Assembly: GCA_010093605.1 (NCBI GenBank)
Contig: MU004199.1
Span: 565,609-629,608, forward strand
DNA length: 64,000 nucleotides
DNA from: Lophium mytilinum
Lineage: Eukaryota; Ascomycota; Dothideomycetes; Mytilinidiales; Mytilinidiaceae
Direction: 5' to 3'
The position numbers and the translations under genes are program-made. This document shows, in pieces, positions 4,877 to 54,636 of this stretch. Each line of letters opens with the position of its first letter. Within the stretch, counting starts at the first letter, position 1. Under the pieces are notes generated by a model. The model was given only the letters and a program-made list of their open reading frames with translations, was not told the origin of the DNA and searched no databases.

Positions 4877-6585
4877 ATGGCCGTCCTCGAAGAAGTGTTG
4901 CGCGGGAAATACCCCGCGAAGACGCACGCGAAGAAAGTTGTGCAGTGGATGCGCGAGCAGGGCGCGGAGGTGGGCGAGGGGACGCTGTATTTGGAGGGGC
5001 AGAAGACGCGGATGATTGAGGATAATGATGAGCCGGTGCCGTTTAGGTGAGTGTTTTATTTGGGGTTTAGAGTAGAGCTAGAAGAGGAGATGGGGCTGAT
5101 GCAAAAGGTGGTTAGGCAACGACGATACTTCTTCTATCTTACGGGATGTAATCTGCCGGATTGCTACTTCACGTATGATATCAAGACGGAGAAGTCGACG
5201 CTGTTTATTCCGGGCGTCGATCCGGAGGAGGTGATTTGGTCGGGGTTGCCGATGAGTGTTGAGGAGGCGTTGGAGAGGTTAGTGGTGGTTTTCTTTTGTT
5301 TGGGGGGTTGGGGAGAGATGCTTTGTTGTGGTTTTTTTACCCTCACTTCTTCCTTTCTCATCTCTCTCGACTATTCATTTTCTTGTTGTCGTATACCTTG
5401 CTTTTGGTCGAGGTCTTCTAAGTGGTGACGACAATGCGCTATTCAACTTCTCCTTTTCTCAGCACGCTCAGTTCTCCTTTTCTCAAGGTCAATGTCGACT
5501 GCATGGTGTTACTCCCCTGACACACAGCCAGCTATGAAGTCGATGCCGTCCTCCCCTCATCCGAGTTAAATCCACATCTGGCGTCGGCTTCCAGTTCAAA
5601 ATTCACCATCTACGCCATCGCCAGCCAAATCTCCGACGACGTGACCTTCCTCTCCTACAACACGAAAAACGTCGAGCTTCTAAAACCCGCCATTGAATAT
5701 GCCCGTGTGACAAAGACACCATATGAAATCGCCCTCATCCGCCATGCCAACTCCATCTCGACGACCGCCCACATCGCCGTCATGCGCGCTGTTGCCCACG
5801 TCTCAAATGAGCAAGAACTTGAAGCTATCTTCCTCAAGAACTGTGTCGAACGCGGTGCAAAGGAGCAAGCCTACCACAGCATCGTTGCCTCCGGCACTTC
5901 CGCTGCAACCCTCCACTACGTCAAGAACGACCAGCCGCTCGACAACACGCTCAACCTTCTCCTCGATGCCGGCTGCGAATGGGACTGCTACGCCTCCGAC
6001 ATCACGCGCACATTCCCCCGCTCCGGCACCTTCTCCCCCGAATCCCTTGCCATCTACAACATCGTTCTCTCAATGCAGAAGCAGTGCACCGAAGCGCTGA
6101 AAGCGGGCGTGCTATGGGACGACGTCCACCTCCTCGCGCACAAGATCGTCATCGGCGGCCTCCTAGAACTCGGCATCCTGCGCGGCTCCGCCGACGACAT
6201 CCTCGCTGCCCGTACCTCCGTCGCGTTCTTCCCTCACGGCCTGGGACACTACCTCGGCATGGACACGCACGACACGGGCGGGAACCCGAACTACGCGGAC
6301 AAAGACCCGCTCTTCCGCTACCTGCGCGTCAGGGGGACGTTGCCGGCGGGGAGCGTGATTACGGTGGAGCCGGGCTGCTATTTCTGCCGCTTCATCATCG
6401 AGCCGTATTTGAAAGACGAGAAGCATAGCAAGTACATCGATGAGAGCGTGCTGAAGCGCTACTGGAGTGTCGGGGGTGTGCGGATTGAGGATAATATCTT
6501 GATTACGGAGAGCGGGTATGAGAACCTCACGCCGACGCCGAAGGAGGTGAAGGAGATGGGGAAGATTATCAAGGGCGAGGAATGA
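4877..6585 (+). CDS. pepP: Xaa-Pro aminopeptidase / prolidase (M24B), PEPP type
   Basis: Cytosolic metallopeptidase that releases N-terminal residues linked to proline or splits Xaa-Pro dipeptides. Three exons (4877-5046, 5116-5277, 5532-6585) give 461 residues, matching fungal PEPP proteins of about 465. The N-terminal AMP_N-type domain includes [20 protein letters not shown]. The M24 pita-bread fold carries the dinuclear metal ligands: Asp in [20 protein letters not shown] (two Asp), His in [16 protein letters not shown], Glu in TVEPGCYF and Glu in GVRIEDN. The second intron is unusually long here (254 bases, 5278-5531), with CTGAC shortly before the CCAG acceptor; a small unseen exon within it cannot be excluded but is not needed. 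The start is the ATG in a CAACCATGG context. Confidence 0.95.
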
Positions 6586-7329
6586 GAGATTGTGACATGG
6601 GAGGAGGTGATTGAGTTGACGTTGTCAGATGTTGAGTTCTGAGCGAGGTGTATAGTAGGCAGGAAAGGGAGGTGCTAGTGCCTTTCGAATCCTCGGCGGC
6701 GGGCTTGATAGAAGGAATTGAGGCCTTTGAATAGGCCGTCCTTCGTAGGGATTTTGCCTACGTTGAAATTGCTCTGAGCCACGTCCTGCGATGCCGCCCC
6801 TTTTCCAAAACCCACGAAATATCGAGGTGGTCTGGAAGCCTGGAAATGGAGTTCATTACTACAAGGCCTATAGAAAATCGTGTTTCGTACGCTTTTGCAT
6901 ACTCTCAAAGCTGTCTAGGCCACCTCTAGTCCTCCCCACCCCTTCTAAAGCCCCTAGAAAACGAAGCTAATTCAGAGCTGTAACCTACGCCCTCTCTCCC
7001 ACAGAGCCTGAATTAGCTCCATCCTCGCACGCATTGGTCTGCAAATTCGGTGCGAGCTCGTGGCGCCTCACGAGCCGTTACGTCTGGAGCACCTTAACCC
7101 GAATTTGTCAATGCTTGGCTCTATCGTTGCTTACTCGACACCACTTATGGGGTACCCGGGCTGCTGAATTGGCGAAGAGGCATGTTTAACTTACACTGCT
7201 TAAAACTCGACACTGCCCTTGCATCTTCGAAGCCCTGTAGGGGGGCAACCCAAGCAGTGGCAAACCAATACATCCAGGCCTAAACCCTATAACCAGAGAT
7301 CCCATACTCCGCTCCATTTTCCAATGTCA
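6586..7329. other. Intergenic between convergent genes
   Basis: Lies between two stop codons (6585 plus, 7330 minus). The only structure seen is an inverted copy of a dispersed repeat at about 7110-7259, listed separately. Short open frames (for example 6675-6908 minus) have no support. Confidence 0.5.
7110..7259 (-). repeat. Dispersed repeat, copy C (inverted)
   Basis: Read on the minus strand it starts CCACTGCTTGGGTTGCCCC and ends with GCCCGGGTACCCCATAAGTG then GTCGAGTAAGCAACGATAGA. Both ends line up with the copy at about 20830-20980 (ACTGCTTGGGGCACCTC; GCCGGGGCACCCCTTACAGT then GTCAAGTGAGCAAGAGTGGA). The middle is more diverged. No open reading frame. Confidence 0.5.
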
Positions 7330-8794
7330 TCATTTCCCATTCTCAGCCTTCCGCTTCTCCAGCACCATCAGCTCTTCGCAAATCTTCCACATCTCTTCTG
7401 CCTTCCTCTTCCCCTCTTCCTTGAATTCCTCCGCGCATAGTCGCCCAAACCGATCTGGATGCCACCGCAATCGCTCTTGCCGCAGCCATTCGTAGCTGTA
7501 GGATCCAGAGCCTCGGAATAGAGCTTCTACATCGTGTAAGCAAGCTCTAAGACCTAACGGGAGAGATTTGGAGGGCAGACAGGAAGGGGAGGCGCAGAAA
7601 GTCGCGGCAGACGGAATATAAGGGAACCCCTGTATGAGAGCTGGTCTTGGGGTGGTCGATGGTGAGGTTACTGGGGCGGGAGTGGGTGATCTTCGACGCG
7701 GTGCGCGGCTGGATGAGCGTCTGGGGTGGCGATAGGCGGACGCGGCAGCGAAGACGGTAGCGCATTGGGATGACCATGACTCGTAGTGAGCTTGGGAAGA
7801 AGGGGAAGGGGTGCGGCGTTGAGATGGTTTGGGCGGTGGTGGCTGTGACTGAGGCTCCCCTTGGGGAGTGCTTTTCCGGGAGGGCGGTGGTCGGCTTGGA
7901 CTGGGATTTGAAGTGTGGGAGGGTCTCTTCTCAGAGATTGGCTTTTGAGGTCGAGAGAAGTACGACGAGGCAAAGGCTTCCAGTGCATCAGTATTTGAAT
8001 CATCGATCGCACCGGCCCAGGTGCCGTCTTCCCTGATGGCAATAAACTGGTCCTCATGGATTGGATCGAAGGCAACAAATGCGAGTTCACTCCAGTCGAG
8101 ATCTTCTTCCTCCCACTCCTCCCAGGTCTCGGCTAGCGCTTCGTACTCCTCGGGAATGTCCCATGCGACCACGCCGTACTCGGAAAGGGCAAACCAGGCT
8201 CCTTCAGCTCCTAGTGCGACTGCTCGCGGGGGTCCGACTTTCCAGCCAGATGGGCTGAGCCAGCTTTGGATGGTGTCTTCGAGAGATGATGGGATGCCTG
8301 ACCAGCGGATGGATGTCTGGTCCCAAGCGAAGAAACTGGACTTGGGACCAAAGGATACGCGGAGACTCTTGTCGCGGCGGGGGCCTAGTGTGTTTGGGTC
8401 GAATAAGTACGCTTTTAATGCTTTAGGACATCCATCACCGAAGTCTGTCGCAAGCATTTAGAATCACAAACACAAAAGCAGAGGCATATTACTCGCATTA
8501 AGCAAATAGGGCACCAAACTGCAATGGAAGACACATACCAATCTTGAAAGAGCCCCCAATATCAACGTACGATATGACCCACGATTCTTCCTCTGGGCCA
8601 ATAGCAGCCCAGCAAATGGTTGAAATGGAAGCGGAAAGCAATAGTCTATGTAAAGTAGGAGGTGGGTTGCGACTAATAGTACGTCAAACTTGAAATATCT
8701 TATGATAAGAGAAAATATCGTACTGTCTCAGCCCAGTAGGCGATTTCGAGATGTATGCATCATTTGGGCCAAATGTAAAGAAATACTGATCCAT
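7330..8794 (-). CDS. Uncharacterised repeat protein with C-terminal HPD (J-domain-like) segment
   Basis: I do not recognise a named family. Three exons, 8794-8724, 8672-8539 and 8444-7330, give 439 residues; introns of 51 and 94 bases with GTACGA/TAG and GTATGT/CAG. An ATG at 8457 would start the last exon alone, but it has a stop just before it, and the upstream exons match the neighbour at 9116-10098 in sequence and intron phase. The first 230 residues hold about five motifs of one type, each near 40-50 residues: FFTFGPNDAYISKSPTG, WAAIGPEEESWVISYVD, LRVSFGPKSSFFAWD, AVALGAEGAWFALSEYG and FVAFDPIHEDQFIAIREDG. They resemble beta-propeller blades (inference). A proline/serine/arginine-rich linker follows. 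The C-terminus reads RLRWHPDRFGRLC with HPD at 397-399 between charged helices, as in J domains and NFKBIL1-like tails. Confidence 0.8.
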
Positions 8795-9115
8795 GGCATT
8801 ACGGTGTTTGACCGAAGAATGAGGCTATAACAATGGAAAGTAATTGTGCAATAGAAATTGCAACGAAACAAGGCGGAGAGATGCCATGGAGGGCTACCAG
8901 AGCAGGTGTCGCGGTGGAGTTCGGCGGAGGAGATGGCCGAGGTGGTGTTTCAAGGGGGTCCGTGATGGCTGATGTCATGGTGTTCTTCCTTGGTTGGACC
9001 CTGGCTCTCTTCCAGCCTCAACTTTCCCTCATCCATCAACAAATGTGCTTTCACCAGCACGAATGCTATGGAGCGATAGAGGAATCACTGCTTTTGAGCA
9101 GCGTCCCCCAAAAGC
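8795..9115. promoter_or_regulatory. Shared promoter region of the divergent paralog pair
   Basis: 321 bases between the two ATG codons (8794 minus, 9116 plus). Both genes must be driven from here. I see no convincing TATA box or palindromic site. Open frames through it (8833-9237, 8994-9260) run out of frame with the plus-strand first exon and are not supported. Confidence 0.45.
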
Positions 9116-10098
9116 ATGTTCCAGGACAACTTCATCACCTTCGGTCAGAGGGGGGGTTACTACTTCGGATGCGAGTCAAAACAATGCCAGTAGGTCAAGC
9201 AACCCCTTTTCTGGACTGCCTGTTGACTTCGAGTTAGTGGCTCCACGCCCAAGAAATTGAGAGACGTCCTTGAGAGTGACGATACAACTGAGGTATATCA
9301 CGTGACGCTTGGTGCGGCATCAAGCTTTTTGATAACCTACAAAGCGAAAGGTGGATCAGTTAAGATTCGTATGTCTGTTCATGTTTCTCCCGAGTATTGA
9401 ACGTTAACTCTGATTTAGAGAGTGACGGTCTTCCCATCCATCTTGAAACTTTCCTCTCGGAACGGGACCGCTACGACCGCTACGCTCGCGATCTCAGAAA
9501 CATTCGCGTGACACTGGGCCCAGAAAATTCCTCCTGGTATGCCACCGATGGCAAGTCATGGATGTGGCAAAACCTCCCCAGGAATCTTGAATCCGCTCTA
9601 CATTCTCAGAAGTCTTCAGCTGGGAGCTGGACTTCCCCACCTCGCATCGTTGCCCTCGGCGCCGACAGCGACTTTCTCCTAATCACAGAGAACAACGCAG
9701 CGTTCTGGAGCTTGAATCAATACCGGACCCTACGCAAGATGATTCAATTCTCCAAGACGCAGGTGAGCGGCATCTCCGCGATCAAAGACGTGGTGCTTCA
9801 CTCTTACCGATATCAGTGTTTTGTTGCGGAGTCAAGCAACGGAACTCTGATATCTGAGAACGTGCCTCCGCACTCGCAACGTGATATAGACGCTTTTAGA
9901 CAGGCTCTTAAGGTAGCTGCGGAGAGGAAACTGTACCGCACACCGTCACGCGCTTCGCCTCCTCTGCAAGCTACTCTCCGCCGTGAGTGGACGGACCATG
10001 CGAGGCAGACTGGAGACGACCTCGCGAGGGAGATCAAGCTGAAGATGAAGGTGAATGTCAGCATTAGTGCCGGCTCTATTGCAAGGCTGTTTGGTTGA
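9116..10098 (+). CDS. Paralog of the 7330-8794 protein, without the HPD tail
   Basis: Three exons, 9116-9189, 9238-9368 and 9419-10098, give 294 residues. Introns are 48 and 50 bases (GTAGGT..GTTGAC..TAG and GTATGT..TTAAC..TAG). Exon 1 reads MFQDNFITFGQRGGYYFGCE, matching MDQYFFTFGPNDAYISKSPT of the divergent neighbour. Exon 2 ends KGGSVKI against GGSFKI there. Exon 3 has IRVTLGPENSSWYATD, LPRNLESAL, PPRIVALGADSDFLLITENN and a last unit with CFVAESSNGTLISE. Both introns have the same phases (2, then 1) as in the neighbour, so the pair arose by duplication with inversion. The C-terminus is basic and helical (LARLFG-like end) and lacks the HPD motif. Function unknown. Confidence 0.8.
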
Positions 10099-11278
10099 AG
10101 AATCAGAGAATAAGTCTAATGTAAATGGAAAGCTCGAATGAGGTGAACGCTACCTTGGGTGGTAGTGTTTACAGAGCGTAAGGGGACAAGAGAGTAAAGA
10201 GAAGAAATGGAATCTACAGGATTCGAACTCCCAGTCGGCGGCCTTCCGGGCATAGCGGGCTCGTGACGTCGAGAACGACGGCGAGGCTATGCTCAATACA
10301 CTGTGCTCTTAGCGCCGAGGATGGCGGGAAGCATGATAAGCCCATTGGAAGGTGACGCACTTTGGTTACGAAACACCAATCTTTGTCAATCCATATACCA
10401 TCAGTATGTCGAGGAAAAGGCTCATTTCCTTCTATTCACCTAAATGACTATCAATCTGTTGCCGCAATCATCGTATTGGAACACCCCAAACCTCTCGGTT
10501 CGTCATCTTAGCTTCCTTAATCACGTGGCTTGATCGTCGCCCTATGAACATACTAAGAGAGCAAGGACGTCCGTTTACAGCGTAGACCCAATGCGTTTCA
10601 CCTACTATCAATGCTGGCGTGCAGCCCAGCTCTATTGCGAAGTCGTTTGTCCCGTTGTAGAACTCTTTCCATTACTTCGATACTGTATCTCCTCCAAACC
10701 TTACTCACGACTCAAAACATCCCTCACGTCCCAATCAATAAAAGGGTAATTTGTAGTCTGGAAGTCTATACCATTCAACACTCGCCAGACGATCCAGCTT
10801 CTTGCATCATATTAGCACACTCTACAACTGCTGGGGGCACCTGGAACGGCTTTAAATTCCGAGATACGATGTAAAGGCCAACATAGTGGAGATTGGACTA
10901 CCTTTTGACAAAGCTGATACTTGCTAGCTAGGTGCTCCTAACAGCGGTGTTGAGTGAGCAAGAATGAAGCCGAAGCAGTGATGTATTCGTGTATTCGTGT
11001 GCCTAAAGTTATTCTAAGGTCCTATGCTTTCCATTCACCGTCGCGCAACTTCATTTCAAACCCATATAAACTCCATAGCGGCATCCACCTCGCTTGCTCT
11101 ATCACCATCAGTTCCCACAACCACTCTTCTTTCGCAAACACCCACTTGCCAAACATCCCAGAAACTGTGTTTGTGCGGTACTCTTGCAATGGAGCGCAAC
11201 CGTCTCCTCCCCAGCCTCCCTCCCGTCTCACTCCCCTCTCCACTATCCAATAATGTCCAGACCTCGACAACACCCGCA
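10099..11278. other. Intergenic with a dispersed repeat copy
   Basis: Apart from the repeat copy at about 10826-10975, I find no supported gene. A minus-strand GTTCGAATC at about 10215 resembles a Pol III B box, but no tRNA can be folded around it. 10611-10874 is an open frame that overlaps the repeat and shows no protein resemblance. Confidence 0.5.
10826..10975 (+). repeat. Dispersed repeat, copy A
   Basis: Begins CTGCTGGGGGCACCTGG, has the core ACGATGTAAAGGCCAAC and ends GGTGTTGAGTGAGCAAGA then ATGAAGCC. The core differs by about two bases from the copy B core GACTCGATGTAAAGGCCAAC near 20870, and the order and spacing of all three blocks are the same. No coding capacity. Nature unknown: possibly a short non-autonomous element or a worn LTR piece. 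Confidence 0.6.
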
Positions 11279-11684
11279 ATGGACTCCTCCACTGGTCGCG
11301 ACGTAGTCAACCGCTCCAATCTCAGGAATGAATCAGAGAAGTCTTCCAACGAAGGACACGAAGATACTGCCAACCAGGGCCAAGAGCTCGAAGAGACTAT
11401 TGATGACGACAAGTGGGTCGAGCAAATGCTCGCAGAGATTGCGAAGGTAGAGGAGGTACGCATGTCTTCGGGCTACCCCATGCTATTCACCACCCGACAA
11501 TCTGCTGACGGATAATGTAGGAACTTGATCGCATCGAGAAGCTCATCCCCCAAGCTCAGGGCCCTGTTTCCTCCCACCAAGCGCAAGCCTTGTCCAAGTC
11601 CACCGCAGAGCCTCCGAAAAGCATCGACTCGGCCGCTGAACGCCTTACCCGTCTACAGGAGGAACGACTCGCTCTGGAGGTACG

Positions 11685-11689
11685 ATTCG
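11685..11689 (+). repeat. Target-site duplication, left copy
   Basis: ATTCG directly before the 5' LTR; the identical ATTCG stands directly after the 3' LTR at 20246-20250. Five bases is the normal size for copia-type elements. Confidence 0.9.
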
Positions 11690-11819
11690 TGTTGGAAGTT
11701 ATCAATCTGACGCTCTTGGTCACGTGACTTCCGGGACTGCCGGTCACGTGCAGGCCTCTCCTGTAGTATATATGGGCGATGCCCCTTAAGTTAAATATAA
11801 TTAAGGATTTACTTTAACA
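11690..11819 (+). repeat. 5' LTR of the copia-type element
   Basis: 130 bases, TG...CA termini. It contains a pair of CACGTG-like sites in a short inverted arrangement (GGTCACGTGACTTCC and CCGGTCACGTGCAGG) and a TATATATGGG segment that could be the LTR TATA box. Differs from the 3' LTR at about nine positions, all transitions. Only its inner end is AT-shifted. Confidence 0.93.
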
Positions 11820-14800
11820 GGTTATAAGCCCGGGTACTCTATACCTCTAACCTATCTTTACTATATCTAATAGTTATTTTAATAACTCCCTTATAAAAAT
11901 ATTTACTTAATATAATACTAAAGAGAAGCTAAAAGCTAAAAATTCTACTAAGTATACCTTTTCTTCTATATTCTCTTCTATATATATAAAATTCCTAGAT
12001 AACCTTACTACTATTATATAGAATATAATTTTATATAATAAGTTTAAAAAGGCTATATACTATTTTATCTATTTCTACTACTTTTCTACTTCTTATCTTC
12101 TTCTATATTAAAAATACTATCTAATTTATATATTTAACTACTAAATATAAGTGTAGCTTAAGAAAGGGCTTTAAGTATAATATAGAATATAAATATTATA
12201 ACTAAATAAAATTGCCGCTACGCTGCCAGCGCACTTCTAAATAGTAAGAATAAAACTAAGAAAAAGAAGTTAAAGAATATATATAACTTAGCTAGTATAT
12301 ATTAAAATAGCGAGGGCTTATATAGTAAGAGCTAAAAGAGTAAATAAAGCTCTAAGAAACCTACTTTAGTTATACTAGTTGCACTAGTTAATAATAATAA
12401 CTTAGATAATAATAATAATAATAATAACTTAGAAGATAACCTATATTAAAGACTAGAGACTAGTTTAGATAAAGTAGAGAAATATAACTCTAACGCACCT
12501 ATACTACTACCTACGGACGATAAAAATAACTTATTATACCTGCCTAGCAATACTAACGCGGAACCTTAGCCGCACGCTAAGAAAATAACTAGTAAGTATT
12601 AGAAATGGAAAGCGTTTAAGCTAAGCCCGCTATAGTAACTAAGTCTACGCTAGATAAGCCTACTCTAGGCGGGTCTACTCTAGTAGAGTCTACTATTATT
12701 TCCGCGCTGTTAGAGTACTCTAATTAATAAGAACTATAATATTAGTAACCTAGATCTATAGGCCCGGGCGCAGGTTATAGAGGGGAATATTAATATACCG
12801 CTGTAAGAATATACTTAATAATATTAATAATAAAATAAGTACTTCTATTTATACCTAAATAGCCCCCTTTACTTCTATCTATAATAATACTTACTAATAA
12901 TATTAAATAACTCTAACTTAGTCTTACTAGAGAAGAAATAGAACGCTGCTATAAAGCTTCTTAAAGGCTAACTAAAACTAAAAGGTTTAAATAACTTTAC
13001 TAACTAGAATCTATACTTGCAGCTCTATATAGAAATATATAAGTTTACTACTATTCTTAATAGTACTAAGCCTTAACTAACTACTAGAAATATTACTATT
13101 AATATGTAGAAATCTAAAGACTATCTTATTTAAATACTAATTCTTAACCGCGTTAAATAGAAACCGCTCTAACTAATTTATAGAGTAAAGATAGCTTTTA
13201 AAATACTATAGCGCCTATTACGCTACTATACTATTAGAAATGTAACTAAGGTAAACAACCTATAAAAAGAGTACCTAGCTATTACCTATAATACTTTAAA
13301 ATCTATAGATAACTTCTATTAATAACTTAAGGTTGCTAATACTTAACTTACCGCCCTTAATCCTGCCTATAAAATGCCTAAATAGTTCTAGAACCTATAC
13401 TTTCTTAACGGCCTATCTAACGCCTTTATAGTATAGAGAGATAACTTCTTTAGTAATAATAAAGACGTTACTAAAGTTAGTTTTAAAATAGATTTTAATA
13501 ATATTAAAAGTAAAGTAATTACCTAGAAAGTATAAATGCAAGGTAGTAATATATACATTAACTTTATTTAAGATAGTAAATAGAATAGTAAGAAGACTAT
13601 AGACTAGCTTAAGGTATAACTAAAGAAAAAGAATACCTAGTTCTAGAAGTATATTAATATAGTTAAACCCTACTTAACCTATAATATAAGTAAAGGGGGG
13701 TATAGAAGAGAAGAATATATTACTCTAGCCTATTAACTCTATAGATAATAGAGTATATAATACGGAGGCTTATAAGGTCTAGCTATCTATAGCTAAGCTA
13801 GCTTATAATTAGGAGGATAAGGCCGCGGATAAGGGGGGAATAGCTCTAAGCGCTAGCAACTAAATAATATAGAAAGTATAAACTTTATAACTACCTTTAA
13901 AACTCTACTTCTACTATATAGCTCTAACGCATTATTATATATTATATAAACTACACTAATATTTCTGTAGAAATAGAATATAAATAATAAAATACGCTCT
14001 ATACCTAATATAACTGCCTTAATCTCTATATTATAAGATACTATTACTACTACGCCTTCTCTTAATAATAATATAACCTAGGTATAGTATATTAATAATA
14101 TACTAGAGCTAGTTTTCTTTATAAAGCTAATAATACTATATAGCTAATTCTAATAGTTTATAGACTTAAGCGCTTTAAGATATTATATAGGCGATATTAA
14201 ATTATTTAAAAGCCTATAACTATTACTATACTCTATAATAGTAATAGATATAGAGGGAAGATACATCTATAGATATAGTAAAATAGTTAATCTATAAGTA
14301 GATATCTATAGAGTAAAGAAGACCCTAATACTTATAAATATACTATATATTTTAGGCATTAACTTTAGCCTAATTTCTATTAACTAACTCTGCGGCCTAG
14401 GTATCTACTCCCTTATTAAAGAAGGCATCTTTAAAATTAGATAGAATAATACTAATAAAATTATTATAGTTACTAAAAGCCTAGGTTTAAATAACTTATA
14501 TATACTATATACTATTAACTCTATAGAGTCTATCTAGGCTATATAAGTCTTCTATATAGCTATTAAAGAAGATACTACTTTTATAGACCTATAGTACTAT
14601 TATATAGAATATATAAGTCTAGCGCGGATACTATAACTATAGAAAGTTATAAAAGGCGTTAACTTAAAGTCTAGGGGCCTTAAATACTATAAAATTTATT
14701 CTTTTACTAAAATGCAGCAACGGAACTTTACTACTAAAGCTACCTGCGCGTTAGCGCTACTTATATACATCTACCTTAATATTAGCGGACTATATCTAGC

Positions 14801-17439
14801 TACCTTCTAGGGAGAACGCTACTATCTTCTCTTTATATATAACTGCTCTAGGTATATATAGATAGAAATAATAAAGATAAAAGGTAAAGTAGTAGAAAAG
14901 ATCTAAAAGTTCTATATTATAATTAAAAATTAGTATAGCTATTAGCTAAAAATACTCTATAGTAATAACAGCGGCGAATTTATTAACTTCTTAGTTAAAT
15001 AGATCTACTAGAAATATAGAATTCTTTATAAACTTACTACTTCTTATAACCTAAAATAGAACGGCACGGCAGAAATTAGAAATAAAAAGATCTAGAATAT
15101 TACGTAAGCTTTACTTAAGAACGCTAATATATTTAAACTTACTTAGTTAGAACTAGTTAAGACTACTATCTATATTCTAAACTAACTACTAATTTCTAGC
15201 CTTAATAATAATATAATACTATATAAAGCCCTCTTTAGTAAGAAACTAGACCTCTCTTATATACGCGTTATTAGCTTAACTAGTTATATACCTATTCTAT
15301 AAACTATATTACTAAAGAAAATAAATAACTACACTTATAAGTATATCCTTCTAGGCTATAGTAGTACTTACTAATACTAAGTATAGTTACTAAAACTAGA
15401 ATAAATTACTCTTATCCAGCACGCAATCTTTAATAAGAAAGAAGTATATAAACCCTATAATTTCTACCTATAGATTAATGCAAACTAAGAAGCACTAGAA
15501 CTCCGCCCTACTAAGAAACAACCCTAGTCCTAGAAGAGGCTAAGAACCTAGACGCTTACTATTAACTAGCGTCTAGATAATAAGCTATAGCTATAATAAT
15601 AAGTTAAGACTAAGCTTAAGGGGGAACTATTATATTATATATAGTTAAAATATTATATTAGGGTTCTTATAACTAATACTAGTAATATCTATAATCTAAA
15701 TATAGCTAATATATAGAAACTTATAATTAAAGAGCTTATAGCTAAGGTTAAAACTATAATTACCCGCCTATAGTAACCTAACTTTATCTATACTAATATT
15801 AGCTATACTATATAAAGCCTAATATATATAGTTAAAGTACTTTAAGCCTATACCTATAATATTATTACTACATCTACTAAAACTAATTCTATAGAACCTA
15901 CTATATATAAGTAGGCTATATAATCTAAGTAATATACTAAATAGAATACAGCTATAAAAGATAAACTAGCCTTACTAGTAGAAAATAATATATAGTCTAT
16001 AGTACCCTATCTAAGAAATATAATAAAGGTTCTATAAGGTAAATAGGTATATAAACTTAAGCAAGATACTAATAGATATATTAGCCGCTTTAAAGTATAA
16101 TAGGTAGTACGCAGTTTTAAATAACGCTATAGAATTAATTTTAATAAAACCTTTACTATAATAGTTAAACTAATAAGCTATAAAGCCCTATTCGCCCTTA
16201 CTGCCTAAAATAGTTAGTATATCTATTAAATAGACATTAAAATAGCTTTTCTCTATAGTAATATTAATAGAGATATATATATAGAATTACTAGATAGTAC
16301 TAATACTTTAGGTTAAGTCTATAAGCTAAACCGCGCACTCTATAGTCTAAAATAGTTACCGCGCATTTAGTACTAAACGCTAGCTAAATTCCTAGTAATA
16401 GTTAACTACTTACTAGCTCTAGAGAACTATAGCATCTTTATCTATAAAGAAAATAGTATAATCTTAATAGTATATATTAATAACCTGCTAATTTTTAGTC
16501 TAAATAAAAAGAATATTACTAGCCTAAAGGCAGTACTTACTATACGCTTTAGCATAACTAATATAGGTAATATTTTCTACTACCTAGGTATATAAGTTAT
16601 AAGGGATAATACTATAGTCTACCTCTACTAGTTATAATATATTAATAAAATTCTTAAAGACTTTAACTTTAAAAACCTCTCTATAGTTAAATAACTAATA
16701 GTTAGTAATAGCTATCTACTACTAGCGCTAGATAAATACCGCGCCTTAGAGGAATTTAGGGTATATTACTAGTTAGCTATTAGATTACTAATATACTTTA
16801 TACTAGGCACGCAGCCTAATATTATATATATAATTTTATAAGTTAGTTACTTCTCTACTAATCTAATAGAAGCCTATTAGAGCGCTATTAAGAAGATCTT
16901 CTACTATTTTAAAGGTATAAAGACTCTTAGACTTATTTTTAGTAAAGTAAACCTTACTAGCTTCTCTAACACTAATTAGGTAAGAGATTATAACTAATAG
17001 TCTACTAGCGGATACGTCTTTAAACTTAGAAACGCCGCTATTAGCTAGTTATCTAAGCGCTAAAATATAACTATACTATTAAGCTATAAAGCTAAATATA
17101 TTACCGCAGCTAAAGTAGCTAAGAAAGCTATCTAGCTAGAATATCTACTAGCGCGCATTAGATATAAAGGGGACCCTAAAATTATACTACGCGTTAATAA
17201 TAAGGGCGCTATTAGCCTAGCTAAGAACCCTATTAGCTATAACTAGATAAAATATATTAAACTCCGGTAGCACTTCCTCCGCAAGAAAGTTAAGAAAGAA
17301 CTAATTAATATTAAGTTTATTAGTACTAAGGAATAAACTACTAATAGACTTACTAAGCTACTATTAGAAGATATCTTTAACTAATTTATTAAAAATATAG
17401 GCCTTAAATACTACCCCTAAAGCGTAAGTAAGGGGGAGT

Positions 17440-20115
17440 ATATACTAATAAAGCACGCCCTATATTAGTTATAGCTTATATTCTTTAACTAGCGCTAGTA
17501 AGGGCCTATAATACGCTACTCTATACTAAGAATTCTTTAACCTATATTAGTTATAGTAGTTAGTACTAGTAATTCTAGTAATCTATATTAGTTAGAAACA
17601 CCCCTAGATATACAGCCGGTCTACTTCTACGCTAGAAAACTAGCTTAGAAGATATATAGATATAAGCTATAATATATAACCTAATATTATATATAATATA
17701 TATATAATATAGAAATATACTCTAGAGTATAGAAGAACTAAGATAGTATTATCTTTACGCTAATAATATTAATAGCGTCTTCTTATATAATTAAGGTAGA
17801 AAAAGAACTATAGACTTACCTACCTACTATTCTAATACTAGATACTTCCCCTAATATCTATAACATTCTAAATAAAGAGGACTACTTTTATAATAATTTT
17901 ATATAATATATATATAATAACTATAAGTAGATATATATATTTAGACGGGACTTTAAGGGTAGAATATATAATAAGTATCTCTATAAAGCCTTACTACTAG
18001 GCCTAGAGCTAAAATAAGCTATATAGATAGCTACTATTAATACTATAGAACGCTATAACTATCTAGTTAACCCCTAGCGGCTAGAAATGTAAATTACCCT
18101 GCATAAAAATAATACTAAAAACTAGATTATAATATATATTAGTACTATATAACTCTAAGTCTATAATAGTATAAATATTTCTAGCCTTCTAGTTATTACT
18201 AATATTCTCTTTACGCTAAACCTTCTATATAATAGTATATCTAAATAATAGCTACTAGACTATAGGTTCCGCATTAAACCTAATAGAGGTTACTTAACCT
18301 ATAACTAGAATAATAGAGAAGACTATATTAACTCTATTATATATAGAATACTAGAATATAAAATTACTATTATTACTAACTATAATTATTACCTTATCTA
18401 TATATAGCCTAGTAATATATACTATATATAGTCTAGTAATATATAAGAACTCTTAGGTAGTATTTTCCCCTAAGAAGCTACCTATAATAATAATAAGGTT
18501 ATTACTAGCTATAAGAATACTACTAACTGTAGGGATTCTACTAACTATAGAGATACCGCTAACTATAGGGATGCCGCTAACTCTACTAACTAGCTAGCCC
18601 CTACACGCATTATATTATATTATAATTACCTTATTATATATTATATTATATTATTATTATATTATATTATACTACTATTACTTTATCTTATATTATTCTT
18701 ATATTATTATATACTACTACGCCCCTGCGCGTTCTAATATATAACTATAGTCTCTTTCTATATTTTAGAGAATATCTACTTTACTTCTATACTCTATAAT
18801 TAGTATACTTTATATCTAGCACTAAGTAATCTCTATATAGCTTAGTCCCTGCTCTATTATAACTTCTAAGTAGCTAACTAAGTATCTTATTAACTACTTC
18901 TTAAGCTCTAAGCCCTCTTAGGCCTATTCTATAAGCCCTAAGCACTCTTAGGCCTACTCTACCTCCCCTTAGCTAAGCTATCTTTTCTTAAAGCCCTTAT
19001 ATAGAGGCTATATAAGAAGAAGATACTAGAGATACTATAGAGTAAATAGAGGGTATACTTAATACTATAGAAACTATAGGCACTATAGAGAATACTAGAT
19101 ATACTACCCCTATCTCTAGATATATACGCTAAGTTCTAGTAGCTATTATAGTAATACCTCTACTACTAGCCCTTTAAGAGGAATATTACTACTACTCTAC
19201 TAGCGTATACTACTAAGGCCTAGAACTCTATATATCTAGAAAATCTACTACTTCTATACTATTAACTTTAACTATAGTTTTAATTCTAGTAGTAGAATTT
19301 ATCTACGCCCTAGAATATATAGATAGTAACTATAAAAAGGGTAGCCTACCTCTACGCTCCCCTACTAGGCTAAGTAGATACCTAATTATCTATAGTAGAG
19401 ACTAGACTACTATTAACCTAGATATTACTAATAGCCTAATTAGAACCTATAGTAGTATCTCTCTAGTTAATAGTACTTTTAATATCTATTTATATACTAC
19501 TTCTTACTCTTATAGCTTTTATATCTTCTATACCTACTATAGACTCTAGCTCTATCTAGCTACTTAAGCCTACCTTAATAATAGAATAGATACTTTTCTT
19601 AATAACTATATTATAGTTATAGACTTAGTACTACTATACTACTATCTTAAGAAAAATAACTAATATAAATATATTATTCTAGGTACTACCTACCTAATAT
19701 ATTACTTCTAGGTAATACTTATAGTTCTTAAAGGTGTTTAGAATAATATATAGTACTATACTAACTATAAAGCTATCTATAGCTACCTTAATAATCTAGA
19801 GAATAGACTAAGATTCTATCTTACTATAGTTATATAGGGATAGTATACTACCTTTACTACTAATAACTTAGCTTAGTAAGTATAAGTTAAAAAGGGGGGA
19901 ATTAAGCTAAGTATACTATTTTTTTACCTTTTATTACTAACTATATTCTCTCTCTCTATACTTAGTCTTTTATACCTGCTTATACTAGCTCTAATAGTAG
20001 CCTTAGGTATTTAGTCTTAAAGCCTAGTATAATACTAGCTATCTTATTATTATATATATATACCTTATTCTAGTAGAAGTCCTACTAATTACTATAAGCT
20101 TTAATTAAGTGGGAG
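17440..20115 (+). other. Extra 2.7 kb in the copia-type element between RNase H and the 3' LTR
   Basis: After the RNase H trace there is a purine tract (AAGGGGGAGTA at about 17430) that looks like a polypurine tract, yet the 3' LTR begins only at 20116 after a second purine tract. The stretch between has the same RIP composition and no recognisable domain. It includes an 18-base tandem repeat of about three units at 18521-18590 and a repeated TATATTAGTTATAG word at about 17470 and 17550. It could be an additional reading frame of an unusual copia lineage, or a nested older element. Fossil; many breaks. Confidence 0.5.
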
Positions 20116-51836: not shown

Positions 51837-53795
51837 ACTATATTTAAGTTTATTAGTAATCTACCTAGTAAATTATAATTAGTTAATAATATCTTATATT
51901 CTTATATATAAAGCTAAACTATAAGTATTTTAAGCCCCTTAAGACTACTAGAAATAGTTAGAAATTAAGATTTATATAGAAAATTATATTCTCCTCCCCC
52001 TAAGGTATTACTTATAATAATAGAGAGAGGAAATTAACGCTAATTTACTATTCTTCTACTACTTCTTATATAGCCTAAGCGTTACTAGTATATTAATAGC
52101 TACTTAAAGCTTTATAGTTAGATTCTCTACTAGCGCCTTAGTATCTAACTCTTTATCTTTTAGCCTAGAATATAGGCTAGCTATAAAGGTAATAATATTT
52201 TCTAGGATTTTCTAGATCTTCTTACTATCTAGGTAAATAAAATTTAATATTTCTATATACTACTAGATTCTTTCTACTATTTCTAAGGTATCTAGCGCCT
52301 TCTATATATTATCTAATAGTAGGGGTTCTATATAGTTCTTTAGATAGTATATAGAGCCCTTTCTACTACTAAAAATAGTAGATTTAATATAGTAATTTAA
52401 TATAGTAGTAGCCTCTATCTAATTCTACGCGCTAATAGCCTATTAAATAGCCTATAATACATGGATTTCCTTTAAAGAATTCTATTTCTCTATAGTTTAA
52501 TCTACTATAAAGTGCAGCTAGAAACGCTAATAATAGGCCTTAAAATTGCGAATAATACCCTAATCTATAGGCTAATAGATAGATATATAATTAGAAGGAA
52601 AAAATACTACCTTAGTATTCTTTAATATATTATTATTATTTACTATTTCTATAGCGCTCTTATATAAGCTAAAGCTATCTAAAAGAAGTAGTACCTTTCT
52701 CCCCTCTATTCTCTTATTAAACTATACTAGATATTCTAGTATAATACTTCTAGTTATCTAGCTCTTTTTATTATACTTTTAAATAAACTCTATCCCTCTT
52801 ATATTTACTTCTTTATAGCTAAAATACTATAGATTCTTAGCTAATTTAATAATTTAAAGGGGGAGCTTATTACTACTACTACTATTTAAGTAATTAATAA
52901 TAGTAATATATACTTTCTATTTCTTTAAACTAGGTAGTTACTTAATAGCTAAGGTAATATTAAGTATAGCCTTTTAAAAGAGACTATATTTATCTATATT
53001 ATATATATTATCTAGATAATAGAGCTCTATCTTATTATATATAAGCTATATCTCTTTATTAGTATACTTAATTTAAATAGATCTAGCTTCTCTATACTAC
53101 TTTCTCTTTTATATACTATTTCTTATCTTCTAGCTATCTAGCTAGCTATTAGAAAAGCATAGTATAGGCTTATAATTTAATACTAGAATAGACTTCTATA
53201 GACGCTAAGCAGCCTCTTAAAGAAGCTCTCTAGTAATTAGAATTTATATAGTCTATATAGCTTAATACTATTTAAATAGAGCCTTATCTAAAAGAGAGTT
53301 CTTTCTAGCTTTTTTTCTCTCTCTTCTAGTATACCTATTATATAGTCTTATTCTATCTAGATACTTATATTTTTAGCTAAGGCTATAGAAGATTAATAGC
53401 TATTTAATAGTATAGTAGAATTTATTAGAAGCCTATTAAGAAAGAGCCTTTTAGTATAATTCTAGGTAGGTAGTAGTATAGTTATAAATTACTTTATAAT
53501 TAAGGTCTAAGATACTATAGTAATATTATCTATCTAGATTCTTAGCCTTAGGTATTATAGAATTAAGATTTAAATATAAAAATAATAGAAATTAATAGCT
53601 TTTTAATAGAGATATAATGTTATTTAAATAGAGAATATAAAAATATATATACCCGGCGCGGAAAAACCGCCCCTAAAGGGCCTTAAAATAGTAGTAAGCC
53701 TTCTTAGTTAAAGTAATATTAGTAAGCGGGGCCTTATAATATTTTAGTAAATAGGTTATTACTAGGCCCTATATAAATTTATATAGTAAGCCGAA

Positions 53796-53855
53796 AGATA
53801 TTACTATATAGAGGATATTACTATAACCCTATATTACTATAACTAGGGTTTACTG
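53796..53855. repeat. Right terminal inverted repeat
   Basis: TATTACTATAACCC-type words occur twice before the terminal AACTAGGGTTTACTG; inverted, this matches the left end with two differences in the first 20 bases. TA follows. Confidence 0.8.
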
Positions 53856-54636
53856 TACCTAGGTACCGTCCAGCCGCCGGATGACTAAGTCGATTGTTCG
53901 ACCAACCACTGCAACCCGACACTCAATCTAGCGTCTCCACACTCCAACATCTCCATTGCCGCGCGCTCTAAATAGAAGAGAGTTCTTCGCCGCAATACCC
54001 TTCATCGATGAGGCAGAATTCTCCTCAGTATCCACCATCAGCGGCGCAGGAGATCAAGCGATTGTCCCAAATCTCTGGAGGCTGAAACCAGGGACCAAGA
54101 GGCACAGCGTCTACCCACCTACGCGGAGAAACGGCGAACCAATGACAACATTAACATCCTACAAGTTGCATCAGAATCATGTTTACCGTGCCCCATTGAA
54201 AGGCGACATGGTTTCGAAACAACTCTATTGACGCCTCAATGCCGGCGAGGTAGCGTAAGGTTGATCGAAGGAGTGCATGAAGGCGTCTAATGCAAACACT
54301 GAGCAATCCGTGCCCCTCTCACGTGTCTTTTAATATAGTTCTTCTTGCCGCTTAGTTCGTATTAACATGCCTTATAAGGTCTTACCCCCGGATTTTAGGG
54401 CGTATCGATAACATCTCCTCATTCATCTCTCATTTTCATTCTCTGCGACCTGGTGTTTCAATCACTCGACGAACACCCTCTTCATTCCTTTGGGGCTGTT
54501 CGTACGAGCATCTTTGTCGGTCTTTATATCAGCTGTGCTGTTGCATATAACGCTCCTTGCACCCAAAAGCCCTTAGTGATTCGATATCACTTCTGAAGAA
54601 CTTTCCAAGCCTAAATTACGCATCCGGTCACCTATA
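53856..54636. other. Intergenic, transposon to CAP gene
   Basis: A frame open from 53956 to 54231 lacks an ATG at its start and has no family resemblance. It could be a remnant of a gene cut by the transposon, but I cannot support that. 54300-54636 is the promoter and leader of the CAP gene; no clear TATA box chosen. Confidence 0.4.

Follow-up and report, generated by a model that had tools for sequence, protein, structure and literature searches.

A candidate five-bladed beta-propeller domain with varied attachments in a paralogous protein family of Lophium mytilinum

The stretch of DNA analyzed here (the window; 64,000 nucleotides of Lophium mytilinum contig MU004199.1, positions 565,609 to 629,608 of the forward strand) harbors two genes arranged head to head, gene A on the minus strand (8794-7330, 439 aa) and gene B on the plus strand (9116-10098, 294 aa), with 321 bp between their ATGs (Table 1). 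Splice sites were chosen from sequence alone; the introns of both genes have GT-AG borders and lie in phase 2 first and phase 1 second. Splicing thereby confirmed the protein sizes, the two introns with their phases and the 321-base spacing described in an earlier, sequence-only reading of the locus; the shared promoter proposed there would lie in this gap. A and B are homologous and, as proposed there, paralogs: BLASTP aligns them at 28% identity over 209 aa (E 3e-19), a similarity that at the sequence level is beyond chance. Beyond the repeats described below, gene A continues with a Pro/Ser-rich linker of 130 aa, followed by a tail of 77 aa that contains HPD at residues 397-399, in agreement with the low-complexity linker and HPD-bearing C-terminus attributed to it. 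Gene B indeed lacks an HPD tail, but it does not merely stop ahead of one, carrying a 59-aa C-terminal extension of its own.

Table 1 Features of the head-to-head genes (window positions) and genomic places of the other family members; lengths of C, D and E depend on splice sites picked by eye
Feature	Position	Strand	Remarks
Gene A exon 1 (repeat 1, first half)	8724..8794	-	Spliced translation; phase 2 intron next
Gene A exon 2 (repeat 1 end and repeat 2 first half)	8539..8672	-	Spliced translation; phase 1 intron next
Gene A exon 3 (repeat 2 end, repeats 3-5, Pro/Ser-rich linker, HPD tail, stop codon)	7330..8444	-	
Gene A C-terminal tail, residues 363-439, HPD 397-399	7333..7563	-	Helical in a low-confidence model
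Gap separating start codons of A and B	8795..9115	No strand	321 bp
Gene B exon 1 (repeat 1, first half)	9116..9189	+	Spliced translation; phase 2 intron next
Gene B exon 2 (repeat 1 end and repeat 2 first half)	9238..9368	+	Spliced translation; phase 1 intron next
Gene B exon 3 (repeat 2 end, repeats 3-5, 59-aa C-terminal extension without HPD, stop codon)	9419..10098	+	
Paralog C	Contig 1, 1.989 Mb		541 aa
Paralog D	Contig 1, 2.617 Mb		369 aa
Paralog E	Contig 11, 1.378 Mb		407 aa
Paralog F	Contig 7, 1.2285 Mb		

Elsewhere in the window, the open frames at 1116-2420 and 5521-6585 presumably correspond to a mannitol-1-phosphate 5-dehydrogenase and an Xaa-Pro dipeptidase. The regions 12001-20000 and 52001-54000 have a GC content of 26-28%, against 47-63% in the other 2-kb bins, and these low-GC blocks may be repeats hit by repeat-induced point mutation, which they resemble. 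Blocks of this kind, like the short introns, fit a filamentous fungus. On the minus strand, positions 10215-10330 look by eye like a tRNA T-arm; the tRNA-like sequence near 10220 was left unconfirmed, with ARAGORN and Rfam reporting nothing, and Rfam gave no match at gathering score anywhere within 6500-12500.

Searches of the 43.2-Mb, 24-contig genome with parts of each member in turn recovered at least six paralogs (A-F), counts from such searches being lower bounds; B additionally yielded a further weak match on contig 2 (E 2.68). The first, phase 2 intron is present in every member from A to E (F, read by eye, is without it), the second, phase 1 intron in all six members, and a third, phase 0 intron in C, D and F, with A, B and E lacking it given their open third exons. 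The intron phases are thus common to A and B, as had been pointed out, but not peculiar to this pair: with intron 1 in five and intron 2 in six of six members they are a trait of the family and reflect its descent from a common ancestor. In the genome search with B, C was matched at 6.0e-11 and A at 9.7e-10, and a separate comparison gives 80.1 bits (B and C, 26% identity) and 75.9 bits (B and A, 28% identity). By sequence score, though not by identity, B is slightly closer to C than to A. This speaks somewhat against A and B as a matched pair, and the head-to-head genes need not be mutual closest relatives. A tree of the six domains, in which no branch rises above the support mark and a group of A, B and C stands at 88/85 on long branches, does not order these three.

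Each of the two proteins contains five motifs of the type V-x-L-G / S-Y-F-A, picked by eye. Their number agrees with the sequence-only reading; the spacing of 40-50 residues given there is slightly too narrow, as successive motifs lie 39, 53, 46 and 48 residues apart in A and 40, 52, 47 and 47 in B. Cutting all six domains by eye, with each repeat starting at the first strand of its motif, gave five repeats per domain at spacings of 38-60 residues. The 12 sequences of repeats 3 and 4 were made into a profile, which was then tested on the 18 other repeats, with 200 shuffles of each. Half of these repeats (9 of 18) were recovered at a score that no shuffle reached, and two more were equaled by one or two shuffles (11 of 18 at ≤2/200). 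Four and six of 200 shuffles score as well as B5 and F1, respectively, and the remaining five (C5, D2, E2, E5 and F5) are indistinct from shuffles, 19 to 93 of which do as well. On this profile evidence the internal repetition of the shared domain is real and beyond chance; repeats 2 and 5 appear the most worn and F the least clear member.

The family had been described as unnamed, and Pfam bears this out for the repeat domain. A and B have no match at E values up to 10, the repeat domains of C-F have none over the cut-off, and below it only OmdA in C (0.32) and a cytochrome subunit in D (0.092) appear. Closest PDB sequences, all taken as chance, were at E 0.055 for A, 1.1 for the tail and 1.4 for the six-domain profile. 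Conversely, the hemopexin profile (PF00045) hits the genome once, outside the repeat family (E 5.45), and the Tachylectin profile (PF14517) matches nothing in it at E 10. Pattern searches in viral contigs gave 3 matches for the repeat domain and 10 for the tail, none of them confirmed as relatives. None of the titles and abstract openings surveyed in the literature names a five-repeat family of this kind, from which it does not follow that it is unpublished.

Structure predictions were made from the third exons and span the end of repeat 2 and repeats 3-5, that is three whole repeats of five, without repeat 1 and half of repeat 2. Exon 3 of A by itself gave a model with a mean pLDDT of 43.6. 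The better model, built from two sequences (residues 70-234 of A and, as the second row, B), has a pLDDT of 70.2 and a pTM of 0.66 in the best of five versions, and runs strand-strand-strand-helix three times; the remaining four have pLDDT values of 68.3, 59.5, 45.5 and 42.0. Foldseek against the PDB returned 359 matches at E up to 10 for the two-sequence model, none of them at ≤0.001 (best E 0.083), and TM-scores among the best 50 of these are at most 0.36 by query length and 0.42 by target length. We take 39 of the best 50 to be beta-propellers by name, from about 13 different proteins, with acylaminoacyl peptidase alone accounting for 15; the others include virginiamycin B/streptogramin lyase, AIP1, Pizza, PknD, PorZ, YCF48, hemopexin-type proteins and tachylectin-2. 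A further three are probably propellers as well (Dark, LRRK2 and a G-protein complex chain), and eight are not classifiable by title. For the weaker first model, five-bladed tachylectin-2 fragments ranked first; the best E for this model was 0.052, again not significant. Searching a viral fold library gave nothing significant, with three regulator-of-chromosome-condensation proteins among the best 50 of 424 matches. Small repeated sheets tend to match propellers anyway. The models thus support a propeller fold, short of proof: the earlier suggestion that the repeats are blades of a small beta-propeller gains from the repeat profile, from a partial model of medium confidence and from matches that are mostly propellers, but no match is significant.

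Two known propeller groups invite comparison. Tachylectin-2 (PF14517) is a five-bladed beta-propeller lectin with blades of ~47 residues, fragments of which head the matches of the first model, with one at rank 40 for the second, none significantly; in the models, however, blades of the A/B family seem to consist of three strands and a helix, not four strands. Hemopexin-like propellers (PF00045; vitronectin and pea albumin type) have blades of strands followed by a helix, four in number, and contribute three chains to the best 50 of 359 matches, again none significant.

A strand-rich unit closed by a helix also recalls the penteins, whose five units, each with three strands and one helix, are arranged around a five-fold axis. 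Five repeats of ~45 residues with three strands between successive helices would fit this unit if they form a ring, and the domain would then be an alpha/beta-propeller of the pentein kind instead of an ordinary beta-propeller. Neither pentein nor eIF6 is found by name among the best 50 matches of either model, large complexes there being taken by title, and the six-domain profile finds no sequence relative in the PDB; we consider this assignment improbable. Somewhat greater weight, though still that of an unlikely outcome, is given to the possibility that the repeats stay open as a beta-rich array or belong to another fold, for instance a PH-like one, that partial models mimic. PH-like and other small beta folds are among the matches listed for the poor first model, neither model covers repeat 1 or the first half of repeat 2, and the profile shows repeats 2 and 5 least clearly; this is countered by the predominance of propellers among the best 50 of 359 matches of the better model and by the four clearer spacings, which are regular enough for a ring. 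Taken with moderate confidence, the most likely explanation is that the five ~45-residue repeats, each of three strands and a helix, form a five-bladed beta-propeller that would serve as a binding platform.

What is attached to the repeat domain varies among members. The N-terminus of paralog F is a GTPase, matching MMR_HSR1 (5e-9), Dynamin_N (3.9e-7) and AIG1 (2.2e-6) in Pfam, all over cut-off, and no GTPase is found by Pfam in A or B. F (contig 7, near 1228500) reads in order as an AIG1/MMR_HSR1-type GTPase, a stretch that looks coiled-coil-like by eye and the five-repeat domain. It resembles AIG1/GIMAP-like GTPases in carrying such a domain N-terminally, but the part shared family-wide is the repeat domain. 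C and D have long Pro/Gln-rich tails, as judged by eye. Near the C-termini of C and E lie Gly/Ala-rich hydrophobic segments that, again by eye, resemble glycine zippers or membrane inserts. That a single domain bears so many different parts suggests that it is a recognition module, the effect of which would depend on the part attached.

The tail of A had been read as an HPD segment as in J domains. HPD would be expected about 0.04 times by chance in a protein of A's composition, and the tripeptide is, on sequence grounds, not clearly beyond chance and says little by itself; paralog C also has an HPD, at residue 195 inside repeat 5, in no J-like setting. Pattern matches to the HPD neighborhood elsewhere, RWHPEHY and WHPDQF (one each), fall in open frames of 31 and 39 aa, neither of which looked like a gene, and no copy of the tail was found in the genome at E 1. 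The J-domain profile PF00226 marks 52 places in the genome, 43 over cut-off by their own score and two more together with their neighbors, and the tail is not among them; searched alone, the tail has no Pfam match at E 10. A J profile was made from those 23 of 30 loci, drawn from the 52 places, that have HPD, no stop and at least 55 aa. Left out in turn, the 23 real J domains score 44.8-93.4 bits; the tail reaches 6.4 bits, a value attained by 81 of 1000 HPD-keeping shuffles and one of 1000 free shuffles. A profile from only 11 J domains, a set that had flaws, gave the tail 8.1 bits, the best of 500 free shuffles having 2.5. The comparison by hhalign aligns tail residues 28-72 of 77 in register with J-profile positions 22-63 of 66, which covers the profile from the end of helix II onwards, at a probability of 23%. 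An equal score is reached by 4 of 200 HPD-keeping shuffles, among which the highest probability is 72%, and six real J domains tried give 99.2-99.8%.

In the model of exon 3 (pLDDT 43.6), tail helices are predicted at 365-379, 386-395, 398-406 and 410-437, one ending just before HPD and the third starting inside it, from its proline onwards. Helices are thus predicted around HPD, which in a J domain lies in the loop between helix II and helix III, but at a mean pLDDT of only 43.6, and no J domain is found by name among the best 50 of 514 structural matches of the model holding the tail. Second-position GC is lower in the tail (0.40) than in the linker (0.75), suggesting a folded segment. The tryptophan preceding HPD is not foreign to J domains, since the string WHPDK occurs in two papers on DNAJB6. 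The tail may also resemble the C-terminus of NFKBIL1-like proteins, a putative likeness not mentioned in the titles and abstract openings surveyed. Relative to DnaJ/J-domain proteins (PF00226), the tail shares HPD amid predicted helices and a faint in-register profile match, but it scores far below the 23 tested J domains of the same genome and has no Pfam match. These observations bear on the proposal that A is a true co-chaperone adaptor, with the ring holding a client, the tail (helix II, HPD loop, helix III) recruiting Hsp70 and the tail-less B competing. The in-register match, the predicted helices and the composition of the tail speak for it, but given the profile scores we rate it as quite unlikely. 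Apart from the HPD letters and a faint in-register match the J-domain part is without support, so there is little to back either the chaperone-adaptor design or a competing role for the tail-less paralog. The tail appears to be a separate module, probably helical in view of the low-confidence model and of unrecognized kind; the probability that it represents a trimmed J domain is low. The part of interest is the repeat domain rather than the tail.

In the reading that we favor, the five-bladed propeller, A and B would be two of at least six paralogs sharing a domain of five repeats, each of three beta strands followed by a helix, that probably closes into a small ring. By analogy, this ring would probably act as an intracellular binding platform for a partner, with the effect or the place of binding set by the part that varies between paralogs: F would bring its AIG1-like GTPase, C and E their Gly/Ala-rich hydrophobic ends, C and D their Pro/Gln-rich tails, A its putatively helical HPD-bearing tail and B its short extension. 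A bolder version, to which we attach little probability, is a family of one sensor and many outputs, in which a five-blade propeller absent from Pfam is combined with a GIMAP-like GTPase, with glycine-rich ends that insert into membranes and with half of a co-chaperone domain bearing HPD, and one ligand would, according to the paralog, trigger a response at the membrane, through the GTPase or through Hsp70.

If the fold holds, these proteins would constitute a propeller family not described in the Pfam copy searched, with the same ring fused to a GTPase in a single member and to different parts in the others. Because the same ring would then occur with differing attachments, its ligand is worth seeking, and a single binding assay would inform six genes.
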